Origin: Prochlorococcus marinus str. MIT 0917
GTDB taxonomy: Bacteria > Cyanobacteriota > Cyanobacteriia > PCC-6307 > Cyanobiaceae
Length of the DNA: 64,000 nucleotides
Assembly (NCBI RefSeq): GCF_027359575.1
Contig: NZ_CP114784.1
Coordinates: 1,673,819 to 1,737,818, forward strand
Direction of reading: 5' to 3'
Part shown: positions 31,821 to 42,778 of the stretch, piece after piece
How the letters are laid out: each line of letters opens with the position of its first letter
Numbering within the stretch: position 1 is the stretch's first letter
Position numbers and translations under genes: made by a program
Notes under the pieces: model-generated
Database searches by the model: none
The model's input: the letters and a program-made list of their open reading frames with translations, nothing else
What the model was told of the DNA's origin: nothing

Positions 31821-32480
31821 TCAACTGCCTTGGCTTTTACCTTGAGTTAAAGAAACCCTTTTTTTTATCAAACCACTAATAATAGCAAGTACAAACATAC
31901 CAACCATTGCAAATACGATATATATCTTATCCGCGAGTCCAGCTCCTATAGCAACTGCTACAGGGACAAAAATCAGAAGACAAAGAAGCAAAGCAGATGT
32001 AAATAGTCTCCACCTTGTTCTTCCTAGCCCTAATCCGTAGCTGAGGAAATCAAAAAGTCCTGTCATTAGAACCCCAGTCATTAGGAAGAAATTTCCTTCT
32101 AGTTGGTTTTGATTGAAACTTTCAATTCTTTTCATTGCTTTTATTCCAACCAAGCGACGCACAGGTTCACGTCCTAAATTTCTTGCTATCCAAAATGCCA
32201 CTTGGCACGATATAAAGTCAGCCAAAAAAATTGTTAAACAAGCAGTTTTGAAATCCAACAACCTTCCAGCAAGAATTGCATATGGGAGATTTGATATAAC
32301 AGGGAAGATAGTACTTATACCTCTAAGAATAAAGATTCCTAAAGGAGCCAAGATACCCATATCCTTAACAATCTGATTAATCTGTTCTTCCCATTCGATT
32401 ACAATAAAGTAGTAAAAGAGAGCAGCTGCCAATACGAAAAGCGCTATCAATAGGAATTTTCGTAATTTTTCCTTTCTCAA
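31821..32480 (-). CDS. TVP38/TMEM64-family (DedA-like, SNARE-associated) membrane protein
   Basis: A 219-residue integral membrane protein. It has an N-terminal helix (FLLIALFVLAAALFYYFIVI), the family core from PLGIFILRGISTIFPVISNL to GRLLDFKTACLTIFLADFIS, the glycine-rich GLFDFLSYGLGLGRTRWR and further C-terminal helices. Relatives are lipid scramblases or transporters. It borders the phycoerythrin cluster but has no evident link to it. The start ATG at 32480 follows a short AT-rich leader. Confidence 0.88.
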   Translation of the reverse strand: MRKEKLRKFLLIALFVLAAALFYYFIVIEWEEQINQIVKDMGILAPLGIFILRGISTIFPVISNLPYAILAGRLLDFKTACLTIFLADFISCQVAFWIARNLGREPVRRLVGIKAMKRIESFNQNQLEGNFFLMTGVLMTGLFDFLSYGLGLGRTRWRLFTSALLLCLLIFVPVAVAIGAGLADKIYIVFAMVGMFVLAIISGLIKKRVSLTQGKSQGS

Positions 32481-32645: not shown

Positions 32646-33562
32646 ATGCACACATCTGCTGAAAAAAACTTGTTTACTTGAGGATCTGGCTTTGTAAGTT
32701 CTCATTTGGTTGATCGCTTAATGAAATCTGGAGAAAAAGTTATATGTTTGGATGATTTTTTACTGGGAGTCAAGAAAATATTGAACATTTGATTGGTCAT
32801 TCATCTTTTGAGCTTATGAATCATGACGTTACCAAGCCAGTCAAGCTTGATGTGGATAGGACTTGGCATTTTGCTTGTCCAGCTTCTCCAATTCATTATC
32901 AATTTAACCCTATTAAAACAACTAAAACGAGTTTTCTTGGGACTTACAATATGCTTGGATTAGCGAGGAGAGTTGGAGCTCGAATATTATTCGCGAGCAC
33001 TAGTCAAATTTATGGAAATCCCGAAACATATAATCATACTGAAAATATAACTTTAATTAAATCCTATAGGAATTCGTAGTTGCTCCGATGAGGGTAAACG
33101 TGTTGCCTAATAATTGTGTTATGACTATATGAGAATGAATGGTATTGAGATAAGAATTTCCAGAATATTTAATACCTTTGGTTCTAGAATGTTATTAAAT
33201 GACGGAATACTGTTTAGTAACTTATTAGTTCAATAAATAGATGTAAAGGACCTAACTATATATTGCAATGGTAATCAAACTATAAGCTTTTGTTTCGTTT
33301 GTTTTTTATTGATGGTTTAACTTTATTCATGAATTTTTCAAATATAGAACCAATTAATTTAGGCGATACTGAAGAATTATCTATTCTTTAAATTAATAAC
33401 TTAATGATAAAAGTAATTGAATAAGTAAATCTGAAATTTTTAGAAGAACTATTGTATGATCCTTAGATAATAAACCTTGAATTTATCTTTCAAAAAAGAA
33501 TTAAATTGGGATCACAAAATAATCTTGAAAGACTGATTAGAAATTATGAGAGAGTATTTTGA
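32646..33562 (+). pseudogene. Decayed UDP-glucuronate decarboxylase (UDP-xylose synthase-like)
   Basis: Translated pieces in successive frames match an extended short-chain dehydrogenase of the UDP-glucuronate decarboxylase type along its full length. In order: a NAD-binding start interrupted by an in-frame stop at 32679-32681 (in place of the Gly of the GGAGF-like motif), SSHLVDRLMKSGEKVICLDD, then in another frame FELMNHDVTKP and FACPASPIHYQFNPIKT, FLGTYNMLGLARRVGARILF and STSQIYGNPE. After a further frameshift near 33060 come PIGIRSCSDEGKRVA with stops, DYMRMNGIEIRISRIFNTFG and more. Multiple stops and shifts spread throughout indicate an old inactivation. The intact sugar epimerase follows at 33684. 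Confidence 0.85.
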
Positions 33563-33683
33563 AATGAAATTAACCTTTGTAAAAACTAAATAAGTAATTA
33601 ACTATTATAAATTTAAAAAGTTAATCACTATGATGCTATGATCATAGTGAAAATGTTTATTCTTAGTAAATTATAATAAACAC

Positions 33684-34730
33684 ATGAATTTAAAGCCGAG
33701 TGATGAGACAATTCTTGTAACAGGTGCTGCAGGTTTTATTGGTGCGGCTTTAGTAAAAGCTCTTCTTACTTTGGATTGTAAAGTTATAGGTATTGATAAC
33801 TTGAATGACTATTATTCTATTTCCTTAAAGAGATCTAGATTAACAGAAATTGAGAAAGTTTCCACGAAAAATGGAGAATGGTTTTTTCATGAGATTCCTA
33901 TAGAAGATAATAAAGTATTGCAAGATATAATTAATAGATACAATCCAAAAGTTTTTGTTCATCTTGCCGCGCAAGCTGGTGTTCGTTATTCAATAACAAA
34001 TCCTGCTGCATATATACAAAGTAATTTGGTAGGTTTTGCAAATGTACTTGAAGGATGTAGGCAGAATAAGATTCCTCATTTGATTTATGCATCTAGCAGT
34101 TCTGTTTATGGTGGCAATAAAAATCTTCCTTTCTATGAAGAACAAGCAGTAAATCATCCAGTGAGTTTATATGCCGCGACTAAGAAATCTAATGAATTAA
34201 TGGCCCATACCTATAGCCACTTATATGACTTGCCAACAACTGGGCTTCGATTCTTTACCGTTTATGGCCCATGGGGAAGACCAGATATGGCTCCAATGAT
34301 TTTTGCGAGATCAATTTTAAATAATGAGCCAATCCAAGTATTTAATCACGGCAGAATGAAGAGGGATTTTACATACATTGATGATGTCGTAGAAGGGATA
34401 ATTCGTTGTTGCTTCAAGAAAGCAAGAGTTGATGATCATTTTAATCCTCTTACTCCTAACCCTTCAACGTCATCTGCACCTTATAGAATTTTTAATATAG
34501 GTAATTCACATCCAATTCAACTCACATATTTTATAGAGTTATTAGAGAAGAATTTAGGAAAGAAAGCTATAAAGAATTTTCAACCTATACAGCCAGGAGA
34601 TGTGGTTTCAACTGCTGCAAGGATGGACTTGCTTAATTCATGGGTAGAATACAAACCAACGACATCCATAGAGAATGGTATTAAATTGTTTTCTGAATGG
34701 TACTTAGATTATTTTAAAAATACGTATTGA
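33684..34730 (+). CDS. UDP-glucuronate 4-epimerase-like NAD-dependent epimerase
   Basis: A 348-residue extended SDR. The Rossmann motif is LVTGAAGFIGAALVKALL, the IDNLNDYYSISLKRSRL segment is typical of UDP-glucuronate/galacturonate epimerases, LAAQAGVRYSITNPAAYIQS follows, and the catalytic pair is in SLYAATKKSNELMAH. The C-terminal FRFF-like TVYGPWGRPDMAP and RDFTYIDDVVEGI are also conserved. It probably converts UDP-glucuronate to UDP-galacturonate for surface polysaccharide. Directly upstream lies a dead UDP-glucuronate decarboxylase that would have used the same substrate. Confidence 0.93.
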   Translation: MNLKPSDETILVTGAAGFIGAALVKALLTLDCKVIGIDNLNDYYSISLKRSRLTEIEKVSTKNGEWFFHEIPIEDNKVLQDIINRYNPKVFVHLAAQAGVRYSITNPAAYIQSNLVGFANVLEGCRQNKIPHLIYASSSSVYGGNKNLPFYEEQAVNHPVSLYAATKKSNELMAHTYSHLYDLPTTGLRFFTVYGPWGRPDMAPMIFARSILNNEPIQVFNHGRMKRDFTYIDDVVEGIIRCCFKKARVDDHFNPLTPNPSTSSAPYRIFNIGNSHPIQLTYFIELLEKNLGKKAIKNFQPIQPGDVVSTAARMDLLNSWVEYKPTTSIENGIKLFSEWYLDYFKNTY

Positions 34731-34764
34731 AGAATTATTTTGGTTTTTTCTGATTATTTATAAC

Positions 34765-34995
34765 TTAGGCTAGTCCTAATAATTTAATTCTGAAGAGAGC
34801 AACATTTTTTGATTGGATTGGATTAGAAATTAGAAAAGGGTGATTTTTAATCTTTTCAAAAGCTATTTCAATCTTTTCATCTATTTCTACATCTTTATTA
34901 GTTCCTAGATCACAATCCTTCCAGGCTGCATCAAAGGACATTGCAAAACTATCAGCATTATCATATAAATTTTCACTAGATGCTTCTAAATTCAT
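34765..34995 (-). CDS. Hypothetical acidic protein
   Basis: A 76-residue, net acidic protein with no recognised domain (N-terminus MNLEASSENLYDNADSFAMS; C-terminus NVALFRIKLLGLA). It is convergent with the epimerase gene. It may be a short lineage-specific gene; coding status rests on the open frame and ATG alone. Confidence 0.4.
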   Translation of the reverse strand: MNLEASSENLYDNADSFAMSFDAAWKDCDLGTNKDVEIDEKIEIAFEKIKNHPFLISNPIQSKNVALFRIKLLGLA

Positions 34996-35402
34996 AAGAA
35001 TAGAATCAAATCTTTAAATCATTTTAACTCCTTAATAGGATATTAAAAATATCCTATTCTTTGCAATATAGTTAATCATTATTTATTTTGGTCTATAAAG
35101 ACTATCTCAGTATGATTTTTGATTTATAAGCTAAATAAAGCATTTGGAGATAAATGATATGAAAACCAACATAAATTATGATTATTGTATAAAATATAAT
35201 TGATTATCAACTATTGATTTTGCCAGATATTAACGATCTTTTAGTTTTATTTATTATTGTATTCATTTTACTTGTGAACTTCTTTCGAAGAAATCGAAAT
35301 TAGAATCGTCAAATTTTATTAATGTTTTAAGAAAAAAAATTACTTAGTCTTTGAAGATTATCAAATATAGTAAAAGTATTTAATATGTAATATTCTTAAA
35401 AA
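34996..35402. other. AT-rich intergenic stretch with one possible tiny membrane ORF
   Basis: No conserved gene is seen. On the plus strand at 35220-35303 a TTG-initiated frame encodes 27 residues: a short acidic start, a hydrophobic run (LLVLFIIVFILLV) and a basic tail (FFRRNRN). This is the pattern of a small single-helix protein. Without an ATG or clear ribosome site it remains doubtful. Confidence 0.3.
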
Positions 35403-35567
35403 CTAAGAGTCTCTAAGAGTTGTTCCCAGTCTCAATGCTAAAACCCCCGCAAAAATAACCATTAAAAATGATATACCAGCAAGATCAGGTGAATTTATAC
35501 CTAGACCTGAGGAGAAATCGACTTTAGAAAGATCAAATGTACTTTGAACTCCGAGTAAAAGGTTCAT
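35403..35567 (-). CDS. Small single-helix membrane protein (54 aa)
   Basis: An ATG at 35567 opens a 54-residue frame: an amphipathic N-terminus (MNLLLGVQSTFDLSKVDF), then GINSPDLAGISFLMVIFAGV forming one transmembrane helix, then ALRLGTTLRDS. The clean composition, the ATG and the -LRLGTTLRDS tail look like a real small photosynthetic-membrane-type protein, but I cannot match it to a named Psb, Pet or Ndh subunit. It is too short for ordinary gene finders. Confidence 0.6.
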   Translation of the reverse strand: MNLLLGVQSTFDLSKVDFSSGLGINSPDLAGISFLMVIFAGVLALRLGTTLRDS

Positions 35568-35766
35568 AATCTCTTAACTACTAGTTTCTTTTATGCTAAC
35601 TCAAGATTGAAATGATCTTTTAATTTTCGAGCTTCAAGTATCAACTCTTATGCAGTTTTGTAATAATTATGTTTTGTCTCCTTATCAACTTAGGACTTAA
35701 ATGCCTTTTAGTTTCATAGGATGGGCAGGTAAATTCAGAAATCAAAAGTATTGCTAATACTGTCCT

Positions 35767-35857
35767 AGGCATTAAAAATAGCCTTTTTGGAGGTGCTTTG
35801 AATATTCAAATAATCCTATTTGAATGGTTCCAGGACTCAGATTTGAACTGGGGGACA
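35767..35857 (-). repeat. Degenerate copy of the tRNA-Phe 3' end plus terminator (attachment-site remnant)
   Basis: Bases 35823-35857 match 42701-42734 of the intact tRNA-Phe region with two substitutions and one inserted G. They cover the encoded CCA, the acceptor 3' strand and the T arm. Further left, aggcattaaaaa (35767-35778) matches 42669-42680 exactly, and a degraded hairpin with ggtgctt is shared, so the copy also includes the tRNA's terminator. Both copies are in the same orientation, as expected for att sites at the two ends of an island integrated into the tRNA 3' end. Confidence 0.75.
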
Positions 35858-36201: not shown

Positions 36202-36807
36202 TCAGAGCATAATCTTCTTCAAGACGAATTCAATTGCACACTCTCCTATTGGAGTCATACTTTGATCAAATCTGGGAATATTTATTTTCTGGTTTAAGTT
36301 GTATCTGAATGTCGCATCAAGCAATTCAATTTTTTTAATTTCAATAGGCAAGGAAGTATTTGACAACATTTGGATTAAATTAATACTTTTATTAGACCAT
36401 GATTTTTTTTTGTGTATTGTAAACGTATGCTTGTGATCGTGATTGAATGTTGATGGGAATATCCCTTGCTCATAAAGGTCCTCATCGGGAATAGTGCAAA
36501 CAAGATGACCACCAGGTTTTAATATTCTTATCCAATTGTCAAGTGATATATAAGGATTCACCGTGTGCTCTAAGCAATGTGATGAATAAACAAAATCGAA
36601 ATAGTTATCTTCAATACTCTCCATTAATTGAGCATCTCCATCGGGTGTATCCCATGCTCGGCAAGAGTTCATTAAAGGAAAAAATTCGCCATACTGTGAT
36701 AAACAATCTTCACCTGATCCTATATCAATGCCGTTCCCGACTATATATCTTGTCCCATATCTAGAATCTTTTATTTTGTGAAAAATAGATTTGCTAGTTT
36801 CGTGCAT
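36202..36807 (-). CDS. SAM-dependent methyltransferase (type 11)
   Basis: A 201-residue class I methyltransferase. The SAM-binding motif I is VGNGIDIGSGEDCL, motif II/III is YFDFVYSSHCLEHTVNPY and the post-motif is WIRILKPGGHLVCTIPDEDL. The substrate is unknown; relatives modify sugars or small molecules made by surface glycan clusters. It is the leftmost gene of the island and is transcribed away from the TPR/dioxygenase genes. Confidence 0.88.
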   Translation of the reverse strand: MHETSKSIFHKIKDSRYGTRYIVGNGIDIGSGEDCLSQYGEFFPLMNSCRAWDTPDGDAQLMESIEDNYFDFVYSSHCLEHTVNPYISLDNWIRILKPGGHLVCTIPDEDLYEQGIFPSTFNHDHKHTFTIHKKKSWSNKSINLIQMLSNTSLPIEIKKIELLDATFRYNLNQKINIPRFDQSMTPIGECAIEFVLKKIML

Positions 36808-37178
36808 ATTGATCTCACGTTATGTATAGATTCTCATATTGGTATATGAATTAAATATTTACTACATATTAATTTGCAGAAATAATCAAAAAATACAGTA
36901 CTTTATAGTCTCTTTTTGAACCTTGATTTCCATAACAGTACATTTTTGAGGAGTTTTGTCTGATTAAAGAGCCATTCATAAGTACTGGTGATAAAAAGAC
37001 TTGCCAAAGAATATCATTCAAGGAGAAGCAAGCAGTTAAATCATTAGCGTTAGAATTTTTGCAGAAAGATTCTGGTTAGTAGATATGTAAGCAACTTCAG
37101 GAAACCAACCAATTTGAATTATCTGCTTGTCTTTAGTAGTAAAATTGGAAACACAAAAAATATAAAATATAAGAAAAG
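36808..37178. other. Intergenic region upstream of the TPR-dioxygenase module
   Basis: 371 AT-rich bases between the divergent methyltransferase and TPR genes. It should hold promoters for both. A short plus-strand frame around 36955-37079 (reading LIKEPFISTGDKKTC and onward) has no acceptable start codon and may be a gene remnant; no gene is called. Confidence 0.4.
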
Positions 37179-37958
37179 ATGTATAATTCTATTCAAGAAG
37201 AAGGACAAAATAAGATCACTGAAGTGAAAGTATTCTCCGTTCCATTTGCTCTAGGAGAAATTAAAGAAAACATTATTATTTCTACTAATAATTCATTTGA
37301 AACTTCTAAAGAAGAAATAATCAATCAAGCATTTAATTTTCATTCACAAGGAAACATTTCAGAAGCAGCAAAATATTATCAATATTGCATTAAGCAAGGT
37401 TTGATTGACCACAGAGTTTTTTCTAATTATGGAGTTATATTAAAAGATCTTGGCAAATTAAAAGAAGCAGAATCTTTACAGTGCAAAGCAATTGAACTTA
37501 ATCCTAATTTCGCTAATGCTCATCACAATCTGGGAAACATATTAAAAGATCTTGGCAAATTACAAGAAGCAGAATTGTCATATCGCAAAGCAATAGAAAT
37601 CAAACCTAATTACGCAGATGCTCATTTGAATCTAGGAAACATATTGAGTGATCTTGGCAAATTACAAGAAGCAGAATTATCTATTCGCAAAGCAATAGAA
37701 ATCAAACCTGATTTCGCAGCCGGACATTACAATCTCGGAATCATATTGAACGATCTTGGAAAGTTACAAGAGGCAGAATTATCACTACGCAAAGCGATTT
37801 GTCTTAATAAAAGCTTAGATAATGTAATTTCCTCACTTGGATCAGTTTTAATGAGGCAAGGTAAGCATAAAGAAGGTATTCAGAAATTAAGAGAGGGAGA
37901 TGGTTGTGTAAAAATGGATTATCGTTCTCCATCAAAAACAATAAAGTTTTTTAAATAA
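37179..37958 (+). CDS. TPR-repeat protein, short member of the duplicated module
   Basis: A 259-residue protein. An N-terminal block of about 60 residues (ITEVKVFSVPFALGEIKENI) is shared with the larger TPR gene at 38623. A first TPR (GNISEAAKYYQYCIKQG) and about four 34-residue repeats of the form LGKLQEAELSYRKAIEIKP then follow. The C-terminus (MRQGKHKEGIQKLREGDG) is also shared. TPRs bind proteins or peptides. There is no signal peptide or transmembrane segment. Its stop overlaps the start of the dioxygenase gene by one base (TAATG), so the two products are made together. Confidence 0.85.
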   Translation: MYNSIQEEGQNKITEVKVFSVPFALGEIKENIIISTNNSFETSKEEIINQAFNFHSQGNISEAAKYYQYCIKQGLIDHRVFSNYGVILKDLGKLKEAESLQCKAIELNPNFANAHHNLGNILKDLGKLQEAELSYRKAIEIKPNYADAHLNLGNILSDLGKLQEAELSIRKAIEIKPDFAAGHYNLGIILNDLGKLQEAELSLRKAICLNKSLDNVISSLGSVLMRQGKHKEGIQKLREGDGCVKMDYRSPSKTIKFFK

Positions 37959-38557
37959 TGGAAAGAGTAATATTAGCAAAACCAAAATCTAATCCCACAT
38001 TTATTAGCTCCTGGATTATCAAACCAACTTCATTATGTGATGAATTAATAAAATATTTTGAAGCAAATAAAAGCAAACAATATTTAGGGGTAACCGCATC
38101 GGGATTAAATCCAGAAATCAAAGACACTACAGATTTATCTATAAAACCAAAAGATATACTTATACCTGGAAATGAAATTTTTAAAAATTATATCGAAGAA
38201 ATTCATAAATGTCATAAAGATTATATTTCTCAATGGGAGTTTTTAGAAAATAATCCTACAGCATATGAAATAGGGACATTCGCAATGGTTAGATATAAAC
38301 CTGGGCAGCATTTCAAGAAAATACATACTGAACGTTTTAGCTTGGACACACTTCATCGCGTTTTTGTATTTATGACTTACTTGAATGATGTAGAGGAAGG
38401 TGGTTCTACATACTTTAGTAATTATGATCTTGATATAAAACCTAAAAAAGGATTAACTTTAATCTGGCCTGCTGAATGGACCCACGCACATAGAGGCAAA
38501 ATATTAAAATCCGGATTAAAATATATTATTAGTGGTTGGATAGATTTTAGTTATTAA
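37958..38557 (+). CDS. Fe(II)/2-oxoglutarate-dependent dioxygenase, prolyl 4-hydroxylase-like (first copy)
   Basis: A 199-residue double-stranded beta-helix enzyme. The likely iron ligands are His123 and Glu125 (HTER) and His178 (WTHAHRG), with Lys188 ten residues after the distal His in the 2-oxoglutarate position, the spacing of prolyl 4-hydroxylases. The acidic ligand is Glu, whereas P4H enzymes usually have Asp. YKPGQHFKKIHTE, TYLNDVEEGGSTYF and KKGLTLIWPAEWTH are the core strands. It is coupled to the upstream TPR gene by TAATG. A paralogue with the same arrangement is at 40617. Confidence 0.88.
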   Translation: MERVILAKPKSNPTFISSWIIKPTSLCDELIKYFEANKSKQYLGVTASGLNPEIKDTTDLSIKPKDILIPGNEIFKNYIEEIHKCHKDYISQWEFLENNPTAYEIGTFAMVRYKPGQHFKKIHTERFSLDTLHRVFVFMTYLNDVEEGGSTYFSNYDLDIKPKKGLTLIWPAEWTHAHRGKILKSGLKYIISGWIDFSY

Positions 38558-38622
38558 TTAAAAAATAACCTAATTTAAGTAGTAAAATCTGAAGAACCAC
38601 AAGAGAGAAAAGATAAGAGAAG

Positions 38623-40617
38623 ATGGATGGCTCTACTCAGGAAGGAGAAGTAAAGAAAAAAGTCACTGAAGTAAAAACATACTCAGTTCCATATGAGTTC
38701 AAAGAAATCAAAGAAAATATTACTGTTAATACAAATACTTCTTCTAAACCTTCTAAAGAACAAATAATTAATCAAGCAATTCAGTTTCACCTAAAAGGAA
38801 ATATTATAGAAGCAGGTGAACTTTATCAGTATTGTATAAATCAAGGTTTTAAAGATCACCGAGTTTTTTCTAATTATGGAGTTATATTAAAAGATCTTGG
38901 TAAATTAAAAGAAGCAGAATTGTCATATTGCAAAGCAATTGAAATCAAACCTGATTACGCAGATGCTCATTACAATCTGGGAATCATGTTGAAAGATCTT
39001 GGTAAATTAAAAGAAGCAGAATTGTCATATTGCAAAGCAATTGAAATCAAACCTGATTACGCAGATGCTCATTACAATCTGGGAATCATGTTGAAAGATC
39101 TTGGTAAATTACAAGACGCAGAATTGTCATATCGCAAAGCAATTGAAATCAAATCTGATTACGCAGATGCTCATTACAATCTGGGAATCATATTGAAAGA
39201 TCTTGGTAAATTAAAAGAAGCAGAATTATCGACTCGCAAAGCAATTGAAATCAAACCTGATTACGCAGATGCTCATTCCAATCTGGGAATCATATTGAGA
39301 GCTCTTGGTAAATTAAAAGAAGCAGAATTATCGACTCGCAAAGCAATTGAAATCAAACCTGATTATGCAGATGCTCATTCCAATCTAGGAAATATATTGA
39401 GAGCTCTTGGTAAATTAAAAGAAGCAGAATTATCGACTCGCAAAGCAATTGAAATCAAACCTGATTACGCAGAGGCTCATTACAATCTGGGAATTATATT
39501 GAGTGATATGGGCAACTTACAAGAAGCAGAATTGTCATATCGCAAAGCAATTGAAATCAAACCTGATTACGCAGATGCTAATTACAATCTGGGAATTATA
39601 TTGAAAGATCTTGGTAAATTAAAAGAAGCAGAATTATCGACTCGCAAAGCAATTGAAATCAAACCTGATTACGCAGATGCTCATTCCAATCTGGGAAATA
39701 TATTGAAAGATCTTGGTAAATTAAAAGAAGCAGAATTATCGACTCGCAAAGCAATTGAAATCAAACCTGATTACGCAGAGGCTCATTACAATCTGGGAAT
39801 TATATTGAGTGATATGGGCAACTTACAAGAAGCAGAATTGTCATATCGCAAAGCAATTGAAATCAAACCTGATTACGCAGAGGCTCATTACAATCTGGGA
39901 ATTATATTGAGTGATATGGGCAACTTACAAGAAGCAGAATTGTCATATCGCAAAACAATTGAAATAAAACCTGATTTCGCAGAGGTGCATTCTAATCTGG
40001 GAAATATATTAAAGGATCTTGGCAAATTACAAGAAGCAGAATTGTCATACCGCAAAGCAATTGAAATCAAACCTGATTACGCAGAGGCTTATTCCAATCT
40101 AGGAAATATATTGAGAGCTCTTGGTAAATTAAAAGACGCAGAATTATCGACTCGCAAAGCAATTGAAATAAAACCTGATTACGCAGAGGCTCATTACAAT
40201 CTGGGAATCATATTGAAAGATCTTGGCAAACTTCAAGAAGCAGAATTGTCATATCGCAAAGCAATTGAAATAAAACCTGATTACGCAGAGGCTCATTCTA
40301 ATCGGGGAATCATATTGAGTGATCTTGGCAAATTACAAGAAGCAGAATTATCGACTCGCAAAGCAATTAAATATAATCCTAATATAGGGGAAGCATATTT
40401 TTACTTAGGCAATATTTTAAAAGCTAGTGCTAAGTTTGATGAGGCTTTGTACAACTACAAAAAAGCAAAAGAAAACAAAATTGAACCTAAAAAATGTATA
40501 GCTGCTATCGGAAAAGTGCTTTTAAATCAGGGAAAGCATATTGAAGGTATACAAAATATCAGAGAAGGAGATGGCTCAATTATATTTGATCTTAAGAAAG
40601 GATTTTCGAGAATCTAA
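38623..40617 (+). CDS. Large TPR-repeat protein (about 17 repeats, recently expanded)
   Basis: A 664-residue protein built from an N-terminal block like that of the 37179 gene (VTEVKTYSVPYEFKEIKENI), one divergent TPR, fifteen nearly identical 34-residue repeats (LGKLKEAELSTRKAIEIKP with DYADAHSNLGNIL-type ends), one degenerate TPR (KFDEALYNYKKAKEN) and a conserved tail (LLNQGKHIEGIQNIREGDG). The repeats are also nearly identical in DNA at 102-base spacing, which implies recent expansion. It should form a long superhelix for protein binding. It has no signal peptide. The stop overlaps the next dioxygenase start (TAATG). Confidence 0.88.
   Translation: MDGSTQEGEVKKKVTEVKTYSVPYEFKEIKENITVNTNTSSKPSKEQIINQAIQFHLKGNIIEAGELYQYCINQGFKDHRVFSNYGVILKDLGKLKEAELSYCKAIEIKPDYADAHYNLGIMLKDLGKLKEAELSYCKAIEIKPDYADAHYNLGIMLKDLGKLQDAELSYRKAIEIKSDYADAHYNLGIILKDLGKLKEAELSTRKAIEIKPDYADAHSNLGIILRALGKLKEAELSTRKAIEIKPDYADAHSNLGNILRALGKLKEAELSTRKAIEIKPDYAEAHYNLGIILSDMGNLQEAELSYRKAIEIKPDYADANYNLGIILKDLGKLKEAELSTRKAIEIKPDYADAHSNLGNILKDLGKLKEAELSTRKAIEIKPDYAEAHYNLGIILSDMGNLQEAELSYRKAIEIKPDYAEAHYNLGIILSDMGNLQEAELSYRKTIEIKPDFAEVHSNLGNILKDLGKLQEAELSYRKAIEIKPDYAEAYSNLGNILRALGKLKDAELSTRKAIEIKPDYAEAHYNLGIILKDLGKLQEAELSYRKAIEIKPDYAEAHSNRGIILSDLGKLQEAELSTRKAIKYNPNIGEAYFYLGNILKASAKFDEALYNYKKAKENKIEPKKCIAAIGKVLLNQGKHIEGIQNIREGDGSIIFDLKKGFSRI
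38878..40370 (+). repeat. Tandem array of about fifteen 102-base repeats encoding TPRs
   Basis: The unit contains gaagcagaatt, tcgcaaagcaattgaaat and cctgattacgcaga at 102-base intervals. A higher-order duplication is visible: the stretch starting at 39421 recurs at 39727, 306 bases (three units) on, with very few differences. This marks unequal recombination or slippage in blocks of three units. Confidence 0.9.
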
Positions 40618-41219
40618 TGACAAAGCGAGTAAATTTAGAGAAATCAAAACTCTCTCCTAACTTTATAGGTTCATGGGAAATAGAATCTTCATTATGTGAT
40701 CAAATAATAGCTTATTATGATAAGAATAAAGAAAAACAAATAAAAGGTGCAACTGGTCTTGGAGGTATCAGTTTAGAAACTAAAGACAGAAGCGATATAT
40801 CTATGTCTCCAAAAGATATAAATCTAAAAGGCAACGAAATATTCAATAAATACTTTGCGAGCTTATATGAATTATATAAAGACTATAATAAACAATGGCC
40901 ATTTCTAGCATCAATTGTTTCTACTCTTGAAATAGGTAGATTCAATATAGGAAAATATAGACCTGGTCAGCACTTTAAAAGAATACATACTGAACGATCC
41001 AATCTAGGTACACTTCACAGATTATTAGCATTTATGACCTATTTAAATGATGTAGAAGATGGAGGATCAACATATTTCTCACATTATGATTTAGATATAA
41101 AACCTCGAAAGGGACTAACTATTATTTGGCCAGCTGAATGGACTCACTCACATAAAGGTAATATTGTAAATACAGGTTCAAAATATATTATTACTGGCTG
41201 GTTAACATTTCCAAAATAA
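40617..41219 (+). CDS. Fe(II)/2-oxoglutarate-dependent dioxygenase, prolyl 4-hydroxylase-like (second copy)
   Basis: A 200-residue paralogue of the enzyme at 37958. Ligand positions match: His124 and Glu126 (HTER), His179 (WTHSHKG), and Lys189 for 2-oxoglutarate. Strands YRPGQHFKRIHTE, MTYLNDVEDGGSTYFSHYD and RKGLTIIWPAEWTH are nearly identical to the first copy, while the N-terminal 90 residues are more divergent, perhaps setting partner choice. It is coupled to the large TPR gene by TAATG, exactly as in the first module. Confidence 0.88.
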   Translation: MTKRVNLEKSKLSPNFIGSWEIESSLCDQIIAYYDKNKEKQIKGATGLGGISLETKDRSDISMSPKDINLKGNEIFNKYFASLYELYKDYNKQWPFLASIVSTLEIGRFNIGKYRPGQHFKRIHTERSNLGTLHRLLAFMTYLNDVEDGGSTYFSHYDLDIKPRKGLTIIWPAEWTHSHKGNIVNTGSKYIITGWLTFPK

Positions 41220-41282
41220 AACATATTCTAACAATTCAGACCTATTACAATAATATTAGTATTTCAAAATTCAAAAAAATAA

Positions 41283-41939
41283 ATGAGATTTGTAAATATT
41301 AAAAATAGGAAGTTTGCTACAGTAATTTATCAATTATCAGCTGCTTTCCTTCAAAGTTATACTCAGACAATAAAAGCCTCTAAATGGAATAAACATAAGT
41401 GGAAAGGGCTTACATTAATGAAAGATCCAATGACTCTAAGTATCTACATGATGATGATACAAGAAATAAAGCCTAAAACTATATTGGAATTTGGAACATA
41501 TGATGGAGGTAGTTCTCTATGGATGGAAGATATTATGAAATCTCTATCATTAGATTGTAAAATTCATACTTTTGATATTAACCCAGACAGAGTAAAACTT
41601 CCAGAAGATAGCAAAATAAAATACCATCAACTTGACAATAACAAAATCAATGAATTTATAGATAAAAGTAGAGATTTATTCGAAAATATGGAAAGCCCAA
41701 TTCTAATTATTGAAGACTCTCATGTAAATGTTGACGAGATAGTTAGATCTATTGATCCTTTCTTAAGATCTGGAGATTATCTAGTAATAGAAGATACGTT
41801 AGATCAAATAAAGTATCAAGAGACAATACAATCTGAGAATGGTATAAGAAATCTGAATTATGAAGTTGATACTTATTTTTGCGATTTTTGGGGAATGAAT
41901 AATAGTTGGAATATAAACTCTATTTTTAGAAAAGTATAG
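41283..41939 (+). CDS. CmcI/cephalosporin-hydroxylase-family methyltransferase-like protein
   Basis: A 218-residue protein of the CmcI fold (class I SAM-binding). Motif I is KTILEFGTYDGGSSLWMED, the acidic motif II region is IHTFDINPDRV, and LIIEDSHVNVDEIVRSIDPF with GDYLVIEDTLD carries likely metal-binding acids. Relatives methylate sugars (often rhamnosyl) or small molecules. It follows the second dioxygenase by 63 bases on the same strand and may be cotranscribed with it. Confidence 0.82.
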   Translation: MRFVNIKNRKFATVIYQLSAAFLQSYTQTIKASKWNKHKWKGLTLMKDPMTLSIYMMMIQEIKPKTILEFGTYDGGSSLWMEDIMKSLSLDCKIHTFDINPDRVKLPEDSKIKYHQLDNNKINEFIDKSRDLFENMESPILIIEDSHVNVDEIVRSIDPFLRSGDYLVIEDTLDQIKYQETIQSENGIRNLNYEVDTYFCDFWGMNNSWNINSIFRKV

Positions 41940-42702: not shown

Positions 42703-42778
42703 TGGTGCCAGGACCCAGATTTGAACTGGGGACACGGCGATTTTCAGTCGCCTGCTCTACCAACTGAGCTATCCCGGC
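42703..42778 (-). tRNA. tRNA-Phe (GAA)
   Basis: On the minus strand the gene starts GCCGGGATAGCTCAG, has the anticodon loop CTGAAAA (anticodon GAA) and T-arm GTTCAAATC, and ends with the acceptor strand TCCTGGC, discriminator A and an encoded CCA. The cloverleaf is complete. Its 3' end is duplicated at 35.8 kb, marking it as the integration site of the adjoining island. Confidence 0.97.

Follow-up and report, generated by a model that had tools for sequence, protein, structure and literature searches.

Recurrent decay of a UDP-xylose synthase gene in Prochlorococcus and its possible replacement by a diverged relative

The gene for UDP-xylose synthase (UXS, a UDP-glucuronate decarboxylase) is kept in most of the sampled genomes of this cyanobacterial family, yet within a single genus its decay has recurred at one and the same position. 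What becomes of the pentose nucleotide when this gene is lost is the question raised by a 64,000-nucleotide stretch of the Prochlorococcus marinus MIT 0917 chromosome (hereafter the window; G000:C1:1673819-1737818, in a genome, G000, that consists of a single contig of 1,924,674 bases). An initial annotation of the window had described a full-length UXS ghost next to an intact UDP-glucuronate 4-epimerase, and had read this arrangement as a change of surface glycan in which UDP-xylose production was lost and UDP-galacturonate was kept.

The ghost is a canonical UXS gene in decay, and it can be followed over its full length on the forward strand from an ATG at 32646 to 33593, where the last frame ends. 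The initial annotation had the start right but closed the feature too early, at 33562. In a tblastn search of the window with an intact sister protein, HSPs of 167, 52 and 41 bits correspond to residues 1-219, 223-275 and 286-314, so that the pieces cover residues 1-314, and the ghost frame that includes residues 38-133 scores 174 bits (E values of 1e-59 and 1e-51). The sole other significant match in the window is the paralogous epimerase next door, at 62 bits. Chance similarity to UXS was rejected, since 100 shuffled versions of the ghost region, with two-base blocks permuted, scored no higher than 21.2 bits. The intact sister protein matches human UXS1 (PDB 2b69 and 4gll) with 427 bits over residues 8-315, and the ghost is a decaying version of this sister gene that carries 16 disabling, frame-breaking lesions in about 950 bases. 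In pairwise alignment to an intact sister gene (L010, from G028; 87.4% DNA identity over 945 aligned bases), these are seven frame-shifting indels, the last being a +2 near the gene end, and nine premature stops in the ancestral frame, and there is one in-frame deletion of three bases. The open reading frame of a canonical UXS is gone, with the longest ORF left encoding 96 aa (32789-33079, forward strand), and catalytic residues have been lost. Relative to the intact sister gene, the Glu of STSEVYG is replaced by Gln (STSQIYG, within the 96 aa ORF), the Tyr of YxxxK in the CYDEGK motif is replaced by Ser (SCSDEGK), and both Arg codons of DDPLRRKPSI are changed and broken. The G+C content of the ghost is 0.296, versus 0.319-0.335 in five intact copies. 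No relative of the ghost was detected in phage records at an E value of 1e-5.

Adjacent to the ghost, an intact NDP-sugar epimerase-like gene of 348 aa (33684-34730, forward strand) is under purifying selection, with Ka/Ks values of 0.12-0.20 against five sisters. It is probably a UDP-glucuronate 4-epimerase. Its closest solved relatives are 5u4q at 393 bits, which was labelled a dTDP-glucose 4,6-dehydratase by its depositors, and then the UDP-GlcA 4-epimerase of B. cereus (6zl6) at 152 bits, and no NCBIfam model reached its cut-off among the best 25 of 28 listed. The intact state of this neighbor thus stands as first described, whereas a UDP-galacturonate product can be predicted only at the level of the family. 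A 467 aa nucleotide sugar dehydrogenase, the single PF00984 match in G000, is the likely source of UDP-GlcA. On the other side of the ghost lies a gene for a 219 aa membrane protein (31821-32480, reverse strand) that is presumably DedA-like and that had no NCBIfam match. This gene marks a conserved locus: the same upstream neighbor was present in all 11 genomes compared, and the order of DedA-like gene, UXS and epimerase is kept in them.

Substitution patterns indicate that selection on the ghost was probably relaxed over a good part of this species' branch. Against 11 intact sisters, the ghost has median values of 0.124 for Ka, 0.287 for Ks and 0.44 for Ka/Ks, compared to a median Ka/Ks of 0.153 (range 0.11-0.24) for 55 pairs of intact genes. 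Likewise, changes are shared among the three codon positions as 0.33/0.23/0.44 in the ghost versus 0.24/0.15/0.61 in intact pairs. Because Ka/Ks is raised and sister species keep an intact gene at the same place, the ghost is old but not ancient, as had been proposed from the length of readable homology. Ka/Ks is also raised in the ghosts of G019 (0.43) and G003 (0.31). The values for G015 (0.21), G033 (0.23) and G031 (0.18) fall within the intact range, and these losses therefore look younger.

Sister strains do carry an intact UXS at this position, and we find in addition that the locus decays repeatedly in the genus, which is a new observation. Our survey comprised 41 genomes of the genus, relatives that we take to be the low-light LLI group, and the copy near the epimerase was judged in 24 of them. 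The gene is intact in 14 (G028, G024, G022, G032, G020, G025, G007, G021, G035, G001, G060, G014, G023 and G006), a ghost in six (G000, G015, G019, G033, G003 and G031) and a fragment in four (G005, G061, G002 and G012). The G006 copy was counted as intact on the basis of a frame open up to a contig end (263 aa). The G014 locus has no DedA-like neighbor, and in both G014 and G023 another SDR gene lies between UXS and the epimerase. The 17 genomes left out have the locus missing, elsewhere or unassembled. Outside the genus, a canonical UXS match was found in 110 of 130 sampled family genomes and was absent from 20 (E<=1e-40; 141 family genomes were sampled in all). A tree was built from the rpoB-C1-C2 stretch of 37 genomes, excluding G024, whose marker fragment gave an absurd branch; no rpoC1 match was obtained for G035, G008 or G011. 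On this tree, the intact and decayed states of 22 genomes require eight changes, a count that is blind to gain versus loss. If stops held in common reflect common descent, the six ghosts represent at least four inactivations. Stop 199 is common to the ghosts of G000 and G015, and stops K32 and W75 are common to those of G003 and G031 (L024 and L027), which are far apart on the tree. Such sharing could be due to common descent, recombination or chance. In a literature search with most subscription journals outside its reach, we found no paper containing both 'Prochlorococcus' and 'UDP-xylose', and nothing by title or abstract on UXS loss in picocyanobacteria.

An intact UXS-family gene of 322 aa is present in G000 far outside the window (G000:C1:802376-803341; also a 323 aa ORF at 12374-13345 of L049). 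We refer to this gene and its counterparts as type 2. The possibility had been raised that an intact second copy elsewhere would make the ghost a mere redundant duplicate. A second gene was indeed found, but at 37% identity to canonical UXS it is a diverged relative of the ghost and no duplicate of it, and neither DNA nor protein searches of G000 revealed a near-identical second copy. Type 2 occurs in 12 of the 41 genomes, with 37-41% identity to canonical UXS in every case, and all 12 examples are uninterrupted, with no internal stop. Ka/Ks among the type 2 genes of G000, G002, G015 and G031 is 0.09-0.18. The gene has moved laterally, as is evident from its Ks of 0.30 between G000 and G031, compared to 1.60 for rpoC1; between G000 and G002 there is no such gap (0.45 versus 0.47). 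Among the matches listed for the 130 family genomes outside the genus (E<=1e-40), none was at the type 2 level of 37-41%. The single-cell genome Prochlorococcus AG-363-P08 encodes a relative with 49% identity, which belongs to the best 72 of 519 outside relatives (identity 44-52%); about 50 of these 72 are alphaproteobacterial by title, as counted by eye.

Several comparisons suggest that type 2 is a putative UXS-like decarboxylase that may synthesize UDP-xylose. Human UXS1 ranks first among its solved relatives with 173 bits, followed by a UDP-GlcA 4-epimerase with 117 bits. A fold search with the AlphaFold model also places 2b69 (human UXS1) first, although the model is middling (mean pLDDT of 74.9, with residues 122-151 below 50) and the search therefore supports the family only. 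The best NCBIfam match is NF008872 (bifunctional UDP-4-keto-pentose/UDP-xylose synthase), which type 2 matches with 124.5 bits, below the cut-off of 294; the canonical sister UXS, at 84.4 bits, is also under this cut-off. Residues S122, E123, Y152, K156 and R289, among others, are invariant in the 12 type 2 and five canonical proteins, and type 2 retains the decarboxylase set of S/T, E, YxxxK and an Arg of the ArnA-R619 type. When epimerase-, GalE-, RmlB- and Gmd-like SDRs of G000 are included (names assigned in this analysis), all six SDRs compared have S, Y and K, and Glu is also found in the RmlB- and Gmd-like proteins, so that only the Arg pair and a long segment are discriminating. UXS and type 2 both contain this segment, GxRSCYDExKR, together with the second Arg, and the other four lack them; of the Arg pair, a single residue is aligned in the RmlB-like protein. 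In PMC10338323, the conserved Arg is the marker by which glucuronate decarboxylases were recognized, and when this residue is mutated in EvdS6, only the reduced product decreases. Type 2 has the same layout of S/T, E, YxxxK and Arg pair as the enzyme described there.

Decay of the locus co-occurs with another UXS-family gene. Such a gene is present in nine of the ten genomes with a decayed locus versus two of the 14 with an intact one (Fisher p=0.0005, with species treated as independent). Six of the nine have type 2 (G000, G015, G031, G033, G002 and G005) and three carry a canonical copy at another site (G019, G003 and G012). The tenth, G061 (92% complete), has no other UXS at E<=1e-30, and the two intact-locus genomes, G020 and G021, keep both genes. 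The association persists among genomes at least 90% complete (7/8 versus 1/7, p=0.010) and without the doubtful intact entries G006 and G014 (p=0.0019). Counting type 2 as the only other gene, the figures at the locus are 6/10 decayed versus 2/14 intact (p=0.032), or 6/8 versus 1/7 in the more complete set (p=0.041). Over all 41 genomes, type 2 occurs in 8/17 without and 4/24 with an intact canonical copy, two of these copies being cut by contig ends (p=0.045), and in 7/9 without versus 1/8 with any such copy when completeness is at least 90% (p=0.015). All of these Fisher tests take species as independent, several were drawn from a single table, and genes may be missed where a genome is incomplete. 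Correction for the tree gives five independent pairs on supported branches, of which three to five agree and none opposes. Among 200 pairings, five agree in 109, four in 74 and three in 17, yielding p=0.0625 at best (also the median) and up to 0.25, which is short of 0.05, a value that fewer than six pairs differing in the trait cannot reach. Pairs chosen from the other trait number seven, with five agreeing in 144 pairings and four in 56, none opposing and the rest tied; the set at least 90% complete provides three pairs and a median p of 0.25. G004 is among the 17 genomes left out at the locus, having type 2 and an epimerase with no adjoining UXS, and its omission biases the comparison against the replacement reading. 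Given an intact relative with decarboxylase residues and this pattern across the genus, the loss of UDP-xylose proposed in the initial annotation is not established.

The strongest argument that type 2 is not simply a UXS comes from its surroundings. In G000 the gene is part of a cluster that reads cupin, C-methyltransferase, Gfo/Idh and type 2. A C-methyltransferase (Methyltransf_13/14, the Pfam assignment of the G000 member) is near type 2 in eight of 12 genomes, G000 included. None was found in the stretch around the intact type 2 of G002, G015 and G004, and the G031 stretch is cut by a contig end; beside the G015 gene there is a Gfo/Idh remnant of 72 residues. TPR proteins are near type 2 in 11 of 12 genomes and fall in the same similarity cluster as the G000 member, which matches Glyco_transf_41 with 42 bits (cut-off 25). 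At the loci of the best 72 of 519 outside relatives, tblastn with G000 proteins places the methyltransferase near 66, Gfo/Idh near 50, cupin near 46 and a relative of UDP-glucose dehydrogenase near only five; 32 of these loci are cut by contig ends, and by whole ORFs the methyltransferase count is 57. From this association with the methyltransferase, type 2 may feed a branched-sugar pathway leading to a C-methylated pentose.

In a general pattern, a relative that arrives by lateral transfer supplants a native gene, and the native copy decays. Our tentative preference, at chances just short of even, is that type 2 took over the UDP-GlcA step in this way and the ancestral UXS decayed. The ghost would be the ancestral chromosomal UXS of the picocyanobacterial lineage, inactivated on this species' branch. 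Its loss was probably tolerated because type 2, acquired laterally and located at about 802 kb amid genes for TPR/GT41-like proteins, would use this UDP-glucuronate as well and yield the pentose nucleotide, UDP-xylose and/or UDP-4-keto-pentose. With the second enzyme present, the old copy would drift, acquiring stops and frameshifts first and being reduced by deletion to fragments later, while the neighbors stay. As in the general pattern, the old copy decays in place while purifying selection acts on a diverged copy elsewhere; the differences are that the process appears recurrent within one genus and that the other gene is of two kinds, type 2 or a second canonical UXS. The occurrence of intact type 2 in G002, G004 and G015, where no methyltransferase was found nearby, argues for replacement. 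The tree-corrected test above 0.05, G061 and G027 without another UXS, G020 and G021 with both genes, and the low identity and below-cut-off NF008872 score of type 2 argue against it. A competing possibility, serious though less probable, is the plain loss proposed in the initial annotation, with UDP-xylose production ended. On this view the cell gave up a xylose-bearing glycan and kept UDP-galacturonate, and type 2 was a separate acquisition for a C-methylated branched sugar, amounting to a surface-glycan swap. The cluster in G000 and the gene counts at outside loci are what this explanation would predict, as are G061 and G027, but type 2 retains its decarboxylase residues even where the methyltransferase was not found, and G019, G003 and G012, decayed locally but equipped with a second canonical UXS, fit replacement. 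Overall, replacement is somewhat better supported than plain loss.

It is improbable that the gene simply eroded as a dispensable one in a streamlined genome, with the other UXS genes unconnected. G061 and G027 (97% complete), the latter with neither canonical nor type 2 UXS, show no other UXS-family gene at E<=1e-30, the 20 family genomes without a match are consistent with dispensability, and the corrected association is short of significance. However, the gene is otherwise widely kept across the family, the raw association is strong, and no independent pair opposes it. Sequencing or assembly error, which could produce frameshifts on its own, has virtually no chance of being the cause: it is ruled out by the 16 disabling lesions, and the open conserved gene next door, the substitutions in catalytic motifs and the occurrence of ghosts at this position in five further genomes also speak against it. 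More speculatively, and on balance unlikely, type 2 could represent a separate subfamily of UDP-GlcA decarboxylases whose UDP-4-keto-pentose would undergo C-methylation and reduction to a branched pentose that GT41-like TPR glycosyltransferases would use, and whose lateral spread would repeatedly displace the ancestral UDP-xylose synthase and switch the cell-surface pentose. The ghost itself is an ordinary pseudogene within a testable genus-wide pattern. If a swap by a mobile relative is true, the intact, ghost and fragment states would form a natural series for the replacement of a sugar-nucleotide step in a streamlined genome, and surface pentose chemistry would be a changing trait and perhaps a plausible phage and grazer target.

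The DedA-like gene of G000 shares 94% identity with its G003 counterpart and 59-64% with those at the other 20 loci compared, and exchange of this flank is therefore probable; G003 also has a broken UXS. Beyond the epimerase, about 1.1 kb (34740-35850 of the window) is 82-87% identical at the DNA level in eight sisters (over 934 bases only in one) and about 75% identical in two further sisters. This region holds small ORFs only, including two of 76 and 54 aa on the reverse strand, and gave no Rfam match at the gathering score. Between the epimerase and a conserved block, positions 36202-41939 form a variable slot, in which G000 has methyltransferase, TPR protein, 2OG-Fe(II) oxygenase and CmcI-like genes and the ten sisters have different genes or none; a tRNA-Phe is located at 42703-42778. 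A mirror case is seen in G007 (L260, 7317-8353), where UXS is intact, the local epimerase is broken, and an uninterrupted epimerase with 65% identity is present elsewhere.
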